Source: Succinivibrionaceae bacterium (GTDB taxonomy: Bacteria; Pseudomonadota; Gammaproteobacteria; Enterobacterales; Succinivibrionaceae). Taken from it: a stretch of 64,000 nt of DNA. Shown in pieces: positions 1-26,786 of this stretch. The notes beneath the pieces were generated by a model. That model did no database searches. It was not told the origin of the DNA and saw only the letters and a list, made by a program, of their open reading frames with translations. Numbering within the stretch: the stretch's first letter is position 1; each line of letters opens with the position of its first letter. The translations under genes were made by a program, and so were the position numbers. The stretch is from the NCBI GenBank assembly GCA_016284235.1, contig JAEEOK010000018.1, positions 1 to 64,000 on the forward strand, given 5' to 3'.

Positions 1-639
1 TAAAAACAACATGTTATCCCTCACGAGCGAGAATAATGATCTGTGTCACATAATTTAAGATAATTTGATCCACTTCACAATTTAACTGTTCATTTTTTAA
101 TCAAAGGTTTCATTTGAATCCATTAACTTTATATAAGCTTCCCTGTATTCATGTGTGAGGTCGTTAATCTGTTATTAAAGCTGCTGGTTTTTCATTCATA
201 TCTTTTTGCAGAAGAATCGTAACTCATTGAAATTAAAAGCATTTATATTTTTCTTATGTAAGTTTTATTTGAGTAAATATCTTACATAATATATACTAAA
301 ATACTGAGAACAATAAATGCAGGCAAAAAACTCAGGAGAAATCAGAGCTAAAATCATCCATCAGTCTCATAAGAATGGTGATATCCGCGCTCTTGAAAAA
401 AAAACTGTATATAATTCAGGCAAACTGCAATGTGCATTAGTGTTGTATATCGCTCTCTATTATATAAAATCACTAATTCATTCTGGCTCTGTTAAGGAAT
501 AGTGTTGCTCCGGGAACCGGCATGATACATACATGCACAAATTCATCTGGCAAAAAAATCTACTTTTTAAGTTAAAAATAAATACTTATGAAATGTATTG
601 GTTTCTGCGGTATCAACACTTTTGTTCAACAGTGCCAAT

Positions 640-664
640 AAAAAAACCGGCTCATAACGCCGGT
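640..664 (-). terminator. Rho-independent terminator downstream of secG
   Basis: Stem ACCGGC/GCCGGT followed on the minus strand by a T-run. Confidence 0.7.
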
Positions 665-723
665 ATTAAATTAAAAAAACAACATTGCAAAATCAGATCT
701 TCTTTATAACAACTGCAAAAGGA

Positions 724-1524
724 TCATTTATCAGAAACTACGTCTTTTGAAACAGCCGCATCAGATTGCTTTAAAGCTTCGGTCTGCTCCTTGAGCTTTG
801 CCGCATTATCGGCTGCCTGCTGCTTTAAGGCTTCGGTCTGCTCCTTGAGCTTTGCTGCATTATCGGCCGCCTGCTGCTTTAAAGCTTCGGTCTGCTCCTT
901 GAGCTTTGCCGCCTCATCGGACGCCTGCTGCTTTAAGGCTTCGGTCTGCTCCTTGAGCTTTGCCGCTTCATCGGATGCCTGCTGCTTTAAGGCTTCGGTC
1001 TGCTCCTTGAGCTTTGCCACCTCATCGGCTGCCTGCTGCTTTAAGGCTTCGGTCTGCCCGTTAACATCAAGAGAACGTGATACATCCTGATCGGCTTTAG
1101 AAGGGTCTGTTGCCGTACCGGCACTTTCTGCTTCAGTCGCCGTTTTTTTCTCATCAATAGCCTTTACCCCGACGTCTGAATTTTCAGTTGGAAGATCAGA
1201 TGAATTCTCCTCCTTCTTATCGGCGGAATCAGCACCTGTGGCTGCCTGATCTGCAATACTCTGAAGATTATCAAAATCTGTACTGCCGTGATCCTGATGA
1301 GCATAGAGAGCGGTAATACCTAAACTTATAATGAAAAAAAGAGCAGCCAGAACAGCAGTTGAGTGAGTCAGAAAGTTTCCGCTTCCAACAGAACCGAATA
1401 CTGTATTAGACGCGCCGGCACCAAAGGAAGCACCCATGCTTGCACCCTTTCCATGCTGAAGAAGAATCAAACCGATAAGAACAATCGACACCATCAGATA
1501 AAGGGCTAACAACACACTATACAT
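724..1524 (-). CDS. secG: Preprotein translocase subunit SecG with repeat-rich C-terminal extension
   Basis: N-terminus MYSVLLALYLMVSIVLIGLILLQHGKGASMGASFGAGASNTVFGS is typical SecG; located after glmM as in E. coli. Confidence 0.93.
   Translation of the reverse strand: MYSVLLALYLMVSIVLIGLILLQHGKGASMGASFGAGASNTVFGSVGSGNFLTHSTAVLAALFFIISLGITALYAHQDHGSTDFDNLQSIADQAATGADSADKKEENSSDLPTENSDVGVKAIDEKKTATEAESAGTATDPSKADQDVSRSLDVNGQTEALKQQAADEVAKLKEQTEALKQQASDEAAKLKEQTEALKQQASDEAAKLKEQTEALKQQAADNAAKLKEQTEALKQQAADNAAKLKEQTEALKQSDAAVSKDVVSDK
768..1060 (-). repeat. 54-bp tandem repeat in secG encoding about 6 copies of (A/K)AKLKEQTEALKQQA(S/A)DEA
   Basis: Direct repeat visible in DNA and protein. Confidence 0.9.
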
Positions 1525-1647
1525 TACAATATATCCTACTTACGAAAATAAATTCAGAACATCACAATTCTGAATATTAAAAACAAAAAAAAACACGGCA
1601 GATCTTACTATATCTGTAAATTTTAACAAGGTTTTTACAGAAATCAG

Positions 1648-2970
1648 TTAAATCAGATCTGCAATATAGGTTGCCATTTCATTTACAAGTTTTCCGTCAG
1701 AACCTTCAACCATAACACGTATCAGAGGCTCGGTTCCTGATTTTCTCAGAAGAACTCTGCCCTGCTCGCCAAGTCTGGCTTCTGCCTCCTTGACGGCATC
1801 GATAACTTTCGGATCATGAAGAGGATCCATTCCGTCAACAAACTTCTTGTTAATCAGTACCTGAGGGAACATTACCAGGTCCTTTCTTGCCTCTTTCAGA
1901 GTTTTTCCTGTCCGGGAAAGAGCCTTGAGTACCTGAAGAGCTGATACAATTCCGTCTCCTGTTGTGGAATGGTCCAGACTTATAATATGACCGGAATTTT
2001 CACCTCCAAGCCGCCAGTCTCTCTGCTGAAGCTGTTCCAGCACATAACGGTCGCCAACGGCAGATCGTGCAAAAGGTATATTAAGACGCCTGAGAGCCAG
2101 TTCAAATCCTAAATTTGACATGAGCGTACCGACAACACCGCCGTTAAGTTTGTTAAGCTGCTTGAGCGACGAAGCAATAATGTAAAGAATTCCGTCACCA
2201 TCGATAAGTGTACCGTCAGAATCCACCATCATTACACGATCACCGTCACCATCAAAGGCAATACCCATATCCGCTCCGGTATCAAGAACCTTCGCTATAA
2301 GTTTTTCAGGATGAGTTGATCCTACCTTGTCATTGATATTGATACCGTCAGGTTCACAGCCGATTGCTGTAACAGATGCTCCAAGTTCCGAAAAAACAGC
2401 CGGAGCAATATGATGAGTAGCACCGTTGGCACAGTCAAGAACTATGCGGCATCCGGACAAATCCTTGTCGGAAGGGAAAGTGCTTTTACAAAATTCTATA
2501 TATCTGCCGGGAGCATCCTCTATCACTGAGGAACGTCCGAGCAGCCAGGATTCAACGCACTTGAAATCCTGATCAATCATATTTTCAATTTCTGATTCCA
2601 CTTCATCAGGAAGTTTTGTTCCAAAAGCGGAAAAGAACTTGATCCCGTTGTCATAGAACGGATTATGCGACGCACTGATAACAACGCCGGCATTACACCT
2701 GAAAGCCCTTGTAAGATAGGCTACTGCAGGCGTTGGCATCACACCGGCCAGAATCGAGTGTATTCCCGCAGCAGAAAAACCGGCCTCCAGTGCAGACTGA
2801 AGCATAAATCCGGATATACGTGTGTCCTGACCGATAAGTACTCTCTTGGTACCCTGTCTCGCCAAAACAACACCGGCGGCATAACCTAAACGCAGCACGA
2901 AATCCGGTGTTATAGGATAGTTACCCACAGCACCTCGAACTCCGTCAGTTCCAAAATATTTTCTTTCCAT
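1648..2970 (-). CDS. glmM: Phosphoglucosamine mutase
   Basis: [13 protein letters not shown]..., active-site motif ISASHNP, metal loop DGDGDR. Confidence 0.97.
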
Positions 2971-3831
2971 TTACTTCTTTATCTTCTGTTTTGAATACTT
3001 GCTGGCATACATGAAAACCTTGAGAGCTTCGGCCATTTCCTTTACGTCATGAACTCTGAGAATATCGGCTCCCTTCTCCACTGCAAAGAGATTTGCCGCT
3101 ATCGAACCTGCAAGACGATTTTCAGTGTTGACTTTGAGAAGATCACCTATCATTGATTTACGTGACATTCCAACCAGAACAGGAAGCGCAAAACTTCTCA
3201 AGCGATCGAGCTGACCGAGAAGTTTGTAGTTCTGCTCAATATTCTTTCCGAATCCGAAACCCGGATCAATTATGATATTCTCACGTCTGATACCGGTATT
3301 CAGGCAGTTATGAATTCGCTCGTAAAGAAAAGATGAAATTTCTCCAAGAAGATCTTCATAAGCAATATTCTGCTGCATTGTTTTAGGATCTTCACCCAGC
3401 ATATGCTGAAGACAGACGGGACATCCGTATTCGGCAACGACCTCCATCGCTCCAGGACGTCTCAGTGCTCTTACATCATTTATCATGGATGCACCGGACT
3501 CAAGAGCCGCTCTCATAACCGCAGGAGAGGATGTATCCACACTTATCCAGACATCAGTATTTTCCGCTATGGCCTGCACAACGGGAATTACACGTCTCAG
3601 CTCCTCCTCTTCGGTTACAGGATCACTGCCAGGTCTGGTTGATTCACCGCCGACATCAACAATTGAAGCACCGGCCAGCACCATGTCCTTGGCATGCTGC
3701 AAAGCAGAATCAACAGAACTGAATCTGCTTCCGTCATAGAACGAATCAGGGGTAACATTCAGAATACCCATGATCTTGGGTTGGCTTAAATCTAAAACCT
3801 TGCCCTTGTACTCAAGCTTTGTTACAGCCAT
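2971..3831 (-). CDS. folP: Dihydropteroate synthase
   Basis: MGILNVTPDSFYDGS, VDVGGESTRPGS motifs. Confidence 0.97.
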   Translation of the reverse strand: MAVTKLEYKGKVLDLSQPKIMGILNVTPDSFYDGSRFSSVDSALQHAKDMVLAGASIVDVGGESTRPGSDPVTEEEELRRVIPVVQAIAENTDVWISVDTSSPAVMRAALESGASMINDVRALRRPGAMEVVAEYGCPVCLQHMLGEDPKTMQQNIAYEDLLGEISSFLYERIHNCLNTGIRRENIIIDPGFGFGKNIEQNYKLLGQLDRLRSFALPVLVGMSRKSMIGDLLKVNTENRLAGSIAANLFAVEKGADILRVHDVKEMAEALKVFMYASKYSKQKIKK

Positions 3832-23711: not shown

Positions 23712-23828
23712 TAAAAAAACAAACTGTGATAGTTTTATCAACGGCAACCTGTAAAAAGTACGCAAAAAAGCGTAAAAAATCAAGATCTGACGCGCACATT
23801 AAAACGGAGTATCCTGATAGAATCAATC

Positions 23829-23992
23829 GCGGGGTGGCTTTGATGTCAATCAGGGTGACTCTTGGAGTTCACCATAAATAGAAGGACTTTAAACCGACGG
23901 CGCCGCGCCTGAAGTTTTCTTTTAAGACTAAACGACACATTGCCGTATCAGTGTCTGTTCTGTTATAAATCAGTTGTTTTAAGCCACCCCGC
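23829..23992. ncRNA. Candidate structured RNA element closed by a 12-bp inverted repeat, upstream of the RT gene
   Basis: GCGGGGTGGCTT (23829-23840) / AAGCCACCCCGC (23981-23992) perfect inverted repeat; internal hairpins GGTGACTC..GAGTTCACC, GGCG-CCG-CGCC, GACAC..GTGTC. Confidence 0.45.
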
Positions 23993-24731
23993 CCTTTAAA
24001 AATTCGCCAGGCAGGCAGTGAGGGATAGTAAACCGTTATTCAGATTGCCGCAAATCTGCAGTCTCAAATGCGTAAACGCAAAAAAAGAAAATAGCGAAGA
24101 AGGAATGGAGGAACACGGCATATGAGGCGCAGAGACTTGAACTCATCTATAACAACCGGTGTTAAACCAGTCTAAAAAAGCACTGAACAGTGCTAGAGGA
24201 ATATCAGATATAAAGGGCGAACAGCCCGCTGCCGATCAGAAATTCCGGCCGGCAAAGCCTCTGCACAGATCATTATAACCGCTTCGCTGCAATAGAAAAA
24301 CTTTTATTGAAAAGAAATCTAGAGAAGATTTCCGGCACTGATGTAAAAAGGCTGAAATGAGAATTTACAGAACTAATCAAATTTCTGCTGGAGAAATGAG
24401 CATCAGCAGAAGAATACGGTTTTGTGATAGAAATATCATTCTTAATTACTTTATTGGAAAGATTATCGACAAGACAGCAAACATTATTAAAATCGATCAT
24501 AGATTCTTTGGTTTTTGATTTATTTTAAATATATTTCATCTTTTTTGCTGTCAATCAGCAAATTCAGAAAATATTTAATCAGAACAGACATATATTTTCA
24601 TTTAAAAACTTACATCTTAAAATCTAAAGCGCGGTATAAACCGCTCATGACAGAGACTGTTAAAGCAGTCATGCCGGAATAGTACTGACGAACAGGGTTT
24701 TAATTTTTCTCAGAATGCAAGGAGAAGCTTC

Positions 24732-26786
24732 ATGGAGACCAGCACAGACATCAATTCAAATGAAGACCTGATTTCCAGATTTTTCAACAAAGACAGTCTT
24801 ATAGAAATGGTCTATGAAAAAATTGTCAGCAAAAAGCACTGTGCCATAGGTCTGGATGCCGCGGACAAAAATCATTTTATGAGATATCTCAATGACGAGA
24901 TTGATATAATCTTAAGAAAGATTTCTGACGGAAGCTACAAGTTCACACGCTACCGCATGATGCTAATCCCCAAGGGGCCTAAAAAAAATCCGAGAAGGAT
25001 CTGTGTTCCGACAATTCGCGATCGACTGGTAATAGCAGTAATTTCCCAGATACTGAAAAATAAGTTTGAATCAGCCAGAAGCAGACCGCGTCCTGATCAG
25101 GTGATCAGGCAGATTGTAAAAGAAAAAGGACGTTTCAGCACTTATATAAAGCTGGATCTTTCAACTTTCTATGCATCAATAAATCATAAACTTCTGCTGG
25201 ACAAGCTGAAAGTTATCGGGAACCCGACAGTTTTAAAGCTTATAGAAAGAGTAATCACGACCCCTGCCTATGATCCTGAAACTGATACCGAGTCAAAGAT
25301 TGAAACCGAAGCCAAACCGGGATCCCCTTCCGAACCGGTCGGCGTTCCCGAAGGTCTTTCCTGTTCTGGACTTCTTGCAGATATTTTTCTGGAAGATATA
25401 GACTGCAGATACGGAAAGCGTGAAGATATACGCTACTACAGATTTGTCGACGACATACTCATACTCTGCGATAAAGAAGAAGATGAAACCGAACAGCTGA
25501 AAAAACAGATCATAAGCGATCTGACAGCCAAAAAACTGATCATCAACCAGGAAAAAACCAAAACTTCGCAGCTTATCGACGGATTGAGTTATCTGGGCTA
25601 CACATTCTCCGGTGACTTCATCAGCGTGAGGAAGGAATCAATCCGCAAGCATGAGAAAGCCATTGAAGATATGGTTAAAAAATACGTCAAAAAAATCACC
25701 AACACCGACACTCTCTACAAAGCTGTCTACAGCAAGTACGAACTAGACAACAAGATATCCATGCTCTGTACAGGAGCAAATGTGGAAGATACATTCATGG
25801 GATGGATGTCATACTACCGTTACATAACAAATATGAAACTGCTGTATCATTTCGACTGGCTTATAACCAGCCTGTATAACAGATACAACATTCCCAAATA
25901 CTGCGGTAAAAGGCATGTGAGAGCATACCATGAATTAAACCGCAATATAAAAAATACAACCTATGTTTTCAAATACCGAAATTTAAAAGCCTACAACGAC
26001 TCTAAAAAGGATGAATTTCTGAAAACTGCAAGACAGTCTCTGAAATCAGGATGTGAAAAGTTGTCTGCAGCGGCAAAAACGATACATAAAACGGGCGGAA
26101 CAGGAGGTCTAATAAAATCATCAGATATAAAAGATCTGAAACTGCAAAACGAGTTAAAATTGAATAATAATCAGAAAGCTGTATTAAGCCTGGGACTTTC
26201 AAAATTTGTTTCCGTAAAAAATCATGACGAATATAACCGGATATCGATAAAAGCTGATTCAGATTTTTCGAACATATTAAGTACCTTTAAAAAGAAGAAC
26301 TGGCTGGAATTCAGTCAGAAGGAGATAGATATCCTGCTGAGCGGAATAACTCCAAAGACGGAAGCAGAAGAAAAATCGAATAAAAACAAGGACGACGCTG
26401 AAGAAAAATATGTCAGCAGGCATGATGAATCACTTCAGGACAGTACTGCAGAAACAGATGAAATGAATCAGAATGTAGAAATCACTGCAGCTGTAAATGA
26501 TACTGATGAAAATAACGAGAAACAGGGAGAAACCGATCAGCGTCAGGAAGAAAAAGATTTTGAAAAGCCGGACAATGAACAGCTGAAATCACAGCTGGCG
26601 AAGTATGCGCAGATAATAGAGAGAATCAGCAGGGAGAAAAACATACTGATTGATGATTATGCATTTTTATCAGGCATAGACAAAAACGGAGATATGACAC
26701 CTGAAGAAATTATCGATGCAATTATCGGAGAATTTCTGACAGATCCGATTATTGAAGAAGATCTCAAAACATTTGATTATGAATAA
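24732..26786 (+). CDS. Reverse transcriptase (RVT_1), UG/DRT- or group-II-like, with long charged C-terminal extension
   Basis: Motif A YIKLDLSTFYASINH, motif B GVPEGLSCSGLLADIFL, motif C RYYRFVDDILIL, motif D LIINQEKTKT...LSYLGYTF, thumb-like GWMSYYRYITNMKLLYHFDWLI. Confidence 0.93.
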   Translation: METSTDINSNEDLISRFFNKDSLIEMVYEKIVSKKHCAIGLDAADKNHFMRYLNDEIDIILRKISDGSYKFTRYRMMLIPKGPKKNPRRICVPTIRDRLVIAVISQILKNKFESARSRPRPDQVIRQIVKEKGRFSTYIKLDLSTFYASINHKLLLDKLKVIGNPTVLKLIERVITTPAYDPETDTESKIETEAKPGSPSEPVGVPEGLSCSGLLADIFLEDIDCRYGKREDIRYYRFVDDILILCDKEEDETEQLKKQIISDLTAKKLIINQEKTKTSQLIDGLSYLGYTFSGDFISVRKESIRKHEKAIEDMVKKYVKKITNTDTLYKAVYSKYELDNKISMLCTGANVEDTFMGWMSYYRYITNMKLLYHFDWLITSLYNRYNIPKYCGKRHVRAYHELNRNIKNTTYVFKYRNLKAYNDSKKDEFLKTARQSLKSGCEKLSAAAKTIHKTGGTGGLIKSSDIKDLKLQNELKLNNNQKAVLSLGLSKFVSVKNHDEYNRISIKADSDFSNILSTFKKKNWLEFSQKEIDILLSGITPKTEAEEKSNKNKDDAEEKYVSRHDESLQDSTAETDEMNQNVEITAAVNDTDENNEKQGETDQRQEEKDFEKPDNEQLKSQLAKYAQIIERISREKNILIDDYAFLSGIDKNGDMTPEEIIDAIIGEFLTDPIIEEDLKTFDYE

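Follow-up and report, generated by a model that had tools for sequence, protein, structure and literature searches.

The 64,000-nucleotide stretch of DNA analyzed here (the window) contains, between copA and a reverse transcriptase (RT) gene, a 164-nt element at positions 23829–23992 that we consider quite likely to be the template non-coding RNA (ncRNA) of a divergent antiviral RT of the DRT10 type, related to UG17. The locus as a whole is best read, from its sequence, as a putative two-part defense system of this type, made up of ncRNA and RT, in an uncultured member of the Aeromonadales. UG17 was named DRT10 in a preprint by Tang et al. of October 2025, in which the system consists of a 137-nt ncRNA upstream of SLATT, the SLATT membrane protein, and the RT (PMC12632851). 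In DRT10, a Ser or Tyr at the C terminus of the RT serves as the primer, and the enzyme produces telomerase-like tandem-repeat cDNA by means of an A-B-A' template located just past the last stem-loop (SL), and SLATT was needed for defense in the systems tested (PMC12632851).

The element is bounded by a perfect 12-bp inverted repeat, as an earlier sequence-only reading of the window had claimed, and this repeat is the best stem with arms 100–200 nt apart in the 1019 nt that separate copA from the RT gene. Its score was reached in 2 of 200 dinucleotide shuffles of that gap, so that the closing stem, taken by itself at this single locus, would be expected about 1% of the time. The 164-nt RNA of the plus strand folds at −55.1 kcal/mol (z −4.3). 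When the interior was shuffled with the closing stem fixed, z was −0.1; the closing stem therefore accounts for the added stability, the internal hairpins have no unusual stability of their own, and one locus alone proves little. The hairpins named in the earlier reading are nevertheless present, GGTGACTC-TTG-GAG(T)TCACC with a 1-nt bulge and GACAC...GTGTC at 23934–23955. The frequency of such a stem and an interior no more stable than its shuffles are what a chance inverted repeat or a miniature inverted-repeat transposable element would have in its favor. Either is highly improbable, given that the element is present as one copy in the 2.9-Mb genome, and not as many scattered copies unlinked to an RT, and that its layout recurs at related RTs together with an independent promoter signal. 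A scan of the window with Rfam returned nothing at the ncRNA locus and only a tRNA elsewhere.

The promoter signal is an extended −10-like box just ahead of the 5' arm. Across seven SLATT-less loci, the RT strand has a −10-like hexamer 3–9 nt ahead of the 5' arm (Fisher p 3.4e-7; p 0.0105 for the window locus alone), and the same position test gave a Fisher p of 5.7e-6 for 12 SLATT-linked DRT10 loci, whereas the opposite-strand control showed no signal (Fisher p 0.50). The sequence TAGAATCAATCGCG at the −10 spot is common to the window and the DRT10 locus of Pseudomonas veronii (L077). A general sigma-70 scan does not list the TAGAAT site because no −35 meets the rule of the scan, and the site is argued for as an extended −10.

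The 12 SLATT-linked UG17 loci were extracted as a comparison set. Upstream of SLATT, each has a perfect or near-perfect stem of 6–15 bp that encloses 109–182 nt; this was the top-scoring long-range stem in 9 of the 12 and the second in L055, and for L076 and L080 it was chosen by eye. At the better-folded of these loci, two hairpins abut the 5' arm and are followed by a single-stranded linker, more hairpins, and a loop before the 3' arm. The gene-free DNA upstream of SLATT-less RTs carries the same kind of stem, and a comparable layout precedes the RT in the window and in the related genomes G030, G012, G001, and G002, as well as in G029, which was examined after the pattern had been set. This recurrence, along with the −10 box on the RT strand, bears out the suggestion of the sequence-only reading that the element is an RT-linked structured ncRNA of the DRT type. 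A scored descriptor made up of the stem and two abutting hairpins, written with both sets of loci already seen, picks the same element, with shuffles as good in 1 of 200 cases for the window and for G030 and in 0 of 200 for G012 and G002; it also picks the element of the later locus G029, where 7 of 200 shuffles were as good. When the ncRNAs were aligned with MAFFT, the closing stem mostly ended up in the wrong place. Covariation, which had been proposed as a check, was found in the sole alignable pair, G012 and G029, with 4 compensatory pairs of 22 compared with 0–2 when the sequences were slid.

These comparisons also bear on the idea that the element acts as a structured leader that regulates the RT mRNA in cis, such as an attenuator or a stability element, and is no template. 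It does lie upstream of the RT on the RT strand, and the 740 nt in between are free of open reading frames, but the equivalent RNA precedes a different gene in SLATT-linked DRT10, that of E. coli is a discrete RT-bound ncRNA (PMC12632851), and the distance from ncRNA to RT gene varies from ~180 to 740 nt across the SLATT-less loci. We regard such a leader as unlikely.

The RT itself matches the PADLOC profile RT_UG17 with 346.6 bits (E 4.6e-104). The next named DRT family is Drt3a, at 108.8 bits (E 1e-31), and Drt9 scores 47–62 bits, far below UG17; three relatives of the window RT give the same ranking of profiles. SLATT-linked UG17 RTs score higher on the UG17 profile (468–540 bits versus 347), and the window RT is therefore a divergent UG17. 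The only retron-labeled model listed reached 21.7 bits, which agrees with the earlier view that the RT is not retron-like and makes the retron a1/a2 architecture, to which the element had been likened, a comparison with the wrong family. In a tree with group II intron RTs as outgroup, the window RT and six relatives, all of one family, form a single clade (94/99) on a long stem beside the SLATT-linked DRT10 RTs; the root is uncertain, and the clade is either nested within the SLATT-linked UG17 RTs or sister to them. The nearest relative is on a contig of an uncultured Aeromonadales metagenome-assembled genome, and the family that holds the clade is probably Succinivibrionaceae.

At their C termini, SLATT-linked RTs have a short acidic helix and then a terminal Y or S. 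The relatives share a conserved C-terminal tail, and that of the window RT (...DLKTFDYE) aligns with the terminal Y/S of the DRT10 RTs in alignment A1, in which D677 is nearly invariant; from this alignment, Tyr683 is a candidate protein primer. The tails of relatives read SDYR, VGEY, SGYY, AGYY, and TGYY. The E. coli RT of locus L080 has 444 residues and ends in a Tyr, which is the Y444 priming position reported for Eco1DRT10, although it is not proven that the two are the same system. Ahead of the tail, the clade has an extra ~240 residues, acidic and mostly of low complexity and then conserved and helical. No known domain was found in this stretch, Pfam detecting RVT_1 alone across the window RT, and an AlphaFold model built from two sequences was unusable (mean predicted local distance difference test score 36.7).

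Several results weigh against a DRT10-type assignment. In the window, a SLATT gene is present neither between the ncRNA and the RT nor downstream of the RT, and SLATT_5 was not above its family cutoff in G000, G003, G030, G012, G022, G029, G001, or G002, with both positive controls found. The tails of G001 and G002 lack a terminal Y or S, and the descriptor does not find the G001 element. Real DNA proved a harsher background than shuffles, since the descriptor gives 4 of 126 tiles of the window a score at least as high as that of the element (51 or more), one of them being the element's own tile. The covariance model R1, built from four SLATT-linked ncRNAs and too narrow, fails to detect the element in the window (7.4 bits, E 0.46, matching the stem only and on the minus strand); it finds the held-out L056 and L075 and also misses five SLATT-linked loci (L058, L059, and L077–L079). 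Finally, A-B-A' repeats are not above chance in the SLATT-less set (Fisher p 0.36), a test that does no better with the SLATT-linked set (Fisher p 0.82) and thus has no power.

Some of these points would suit an ncRNA that serves the window RT in making something other than DRT10-like repeats, either a DRT9-like homopolymer or a single short cDNA, in which case the clade would be a mechanistically separate DRT type. The long stem on which the clade branches next to the SLATT-linked UG17 RTs, the lack of SLATT, A-B-A' repeats no more frequent than chance, and the loop of G030, which has seven U at its end and no 4-nt A-B-A' with a short B, are all in keeping with this. The RT is, however, far nearer to UG17 than to Drt9, and its tail and the layout of its RNA are those of DRT10, so that we give a separate type a small though real chance.

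On the DRT10-type reading that we favor, the following mechanism can be proposed. A promoter with its −10 box ending at 23823 would initiate the RNA where the closing stem begins, at its 5' arm. The RNA is predicted to fold, in a manner common to the related loci, such that the stem closes a ring of hairpins and the template loop, lying between the last hairpin and the 3' arm, stays open. By homology with DRT10, the RT may bind this RNA, use its C-terminal Tyr683 to prime DNA synthesis, copy a few loop nucleotides until it halts at the last hairpin, and then slip back for further rounds, yielding tandem-repeat single-stranded DNA. The hairpin at 23934–23955 would fix the 5' boundary of the template, as does SL5 of DRT10 (PMC12632851). 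Candidate A-B-A' arrangements in the loop are TGTT-C-TGTT (23956–23964) and TGTT-ATAAATCAGT-TGTT (23961–23978), the complements of which would be (GAACA)n and (ACTGATTTATAACA)n, respectively.

How such a product might confer defense is a separate question. The SLATT protein is likely the effector in SLATT-linked DRT10, and the current proposal is that the repeat cDNA controls the SLATT pore (PMC12632851). SLATT_5 is lacking near ~18–24% of UG17 RTs (PMC8934634). With SLATT absent here, the immune effect would have to be carried by the cDNA, the enlarged C-terminal region of the RT, or an unlinked partner. A tentative extension, on which we would not rely, is that the clade represents a branch of DRT10 that works independently of SLATT, with ncRNA and RT as the whole system and the repeat cDNA or the enlarged C-terminal region as effector. 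If true, a natural SLATT-less pair of ncRNA and RT, with the priming tail conserved past a long extra stretch, would offer a direct test of the SLATT-pore proposal and would add a deep branch to an RT group for which a relationship to telomerase has been proposed.

The genomic setting speaks to one further explanation, raised in the sequence-only reading, whereby the element serves copA on the other strand, as a leader or a regulatory element. It lies ~120–280 nt upstream of the likely copA ATG, and the fold of the minus strand is slightly stronger than that of the plus strand (z −5.6). In G005, of the same genus (L090), copA stands beside the same downstream genes, DUF2802-CheW, with ~284 nt between and without RT or ncRNA, an empty site at which the window holds both. 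This contrast argues against a copA leader, as do the lack of a −10 signal on the copA strand and the occurrence of the same layout at RTs that do not adjoin copA, and we give the idea hardly any credence. The copA contig of G003 ends within a similar start, in which the 5' arm, hairpin, and −10 resemble those of the window and occupy the same position beside copA, and the two contigs of G003 fit the arrangement of the window. The downstream neighbor of the RT, where seen, is on the opposite strand and looks unrelated. The coordinates of the features are collected in Table 1.

Table 1. Features of the ncRNA–RT locus in the window
Feature	Position	Strand	Basis
Extended −10 promoter-like box TGA-TAGAAT, 5 nt ahead of ncRNA 5' arm	23815..23823	+	Sequence, position test
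Candidate DRT10-type ncRNA, 164 nt	23829..23992	+	Stem search, fold, shuffles, comparable layout elsewhere
Closing stem P1, 5' arm GCGGGGTGGCTT	23829..23840	+	Inverted repeat
SL1, TGAT-GTCA-ATCA, abuts P1	23841..23852	+	Minimum free energy (MFE) fold
SL2, GGTGACTC-TTG-GAGTTCACC, one bulge, one nt past SL1	23854..23873	+	MFE fold
SL5-like hairpin GACAC...GTGTC, immediately 5' of template loop	23934..23955	+	MFE fold
Putative template loop TGTTCTGTTATAAATCAGTTGTTTT	23956..23980	+	Position only
Closing stem P1, 3' arm AAGCCACCCCGC	23981..23992	+	Inverted repeat
UG17-related RT, 684 aa, catalytic motif FVDD	24732..26786	+	PADLOC, Pfam RVT_1, tree
Clade-specific extra stretch between RT/thumb and tail, ~residues 433–670	26028..26741	+	Alignment A1
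C-terminal tail DPIIEEDLKTFDYE, residues 671–684	26742..26783	+	Alignment A1

The 740-nt stretch between ncRNA and RT also holds an AT-rich inverted repeat, GACAGCAAACATTATTAAA / TTTCATCTTTTTTGCTGTC, at 24473–24491 and 24534–24552. A decayed SLATT gene was looked for in 23993–24731, and the reading frames tried gave no Pfam match. In G002 (L046, 2636–4299), the ncRNA and UG17-like RT are immediately preceded by two genes, named by eye as an AAA ATPase and an RloB-like gene, a neighborhood that suggests a small defense island, and in G030 (L042 reverse complement, 1–3646) type III CRISPR-like genes, also named by eye, lie upstream of the ncRNA and RT. Two further UG17-like RTs of other proteobacteria, L085 and L086, which likewise have no SLATT gene immediately upstream, form a separate pair in the tree. 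Weaker matches to the UG17 profile within the family (L060–L065) look like group II intron RTs on inspection and were left out, and no UG17 RT match was found in phage records.

Among known systems, the closest is DRT10, with which the window locus shares a UG17-like RT whose tail has a candidate Tyr aligned to the terminal Tyr/Ser, an upstream ncRNA with a closing stem, abutting hairpins, and a loop past the last hairpin, and a −10 box just ahead of the stem. It differs in that the ncRNA directly precedes the RT with no SLATT gene, in the ~240 additional residues ahead of the tail, and in an ncRNA sequence too diverged for the DRT10 covariance model R1. The upstream ncRNA and the presumed C-terminal protein priming are also as in DRT9 (UG28 RT and ncRNA), and the ncRNAs of DRT9 and DRT10 are reported to resemble each other (PMC12632851), but the window RT scores far lower on Drt9 and the clade has no conserved poly-U template. 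DRT3 comes in as the next best named family, through Drt3a (UG3); its score is far below that of UG17, and no second RT (Drt3b) adjoins the window RT. Retrons likewise have an RNA closed by an inverted repeat beside an RT and prime from a branched msr guanosine, whereas the window RT is UG17-like, has no effector gene, and would be expected to prime from protein.
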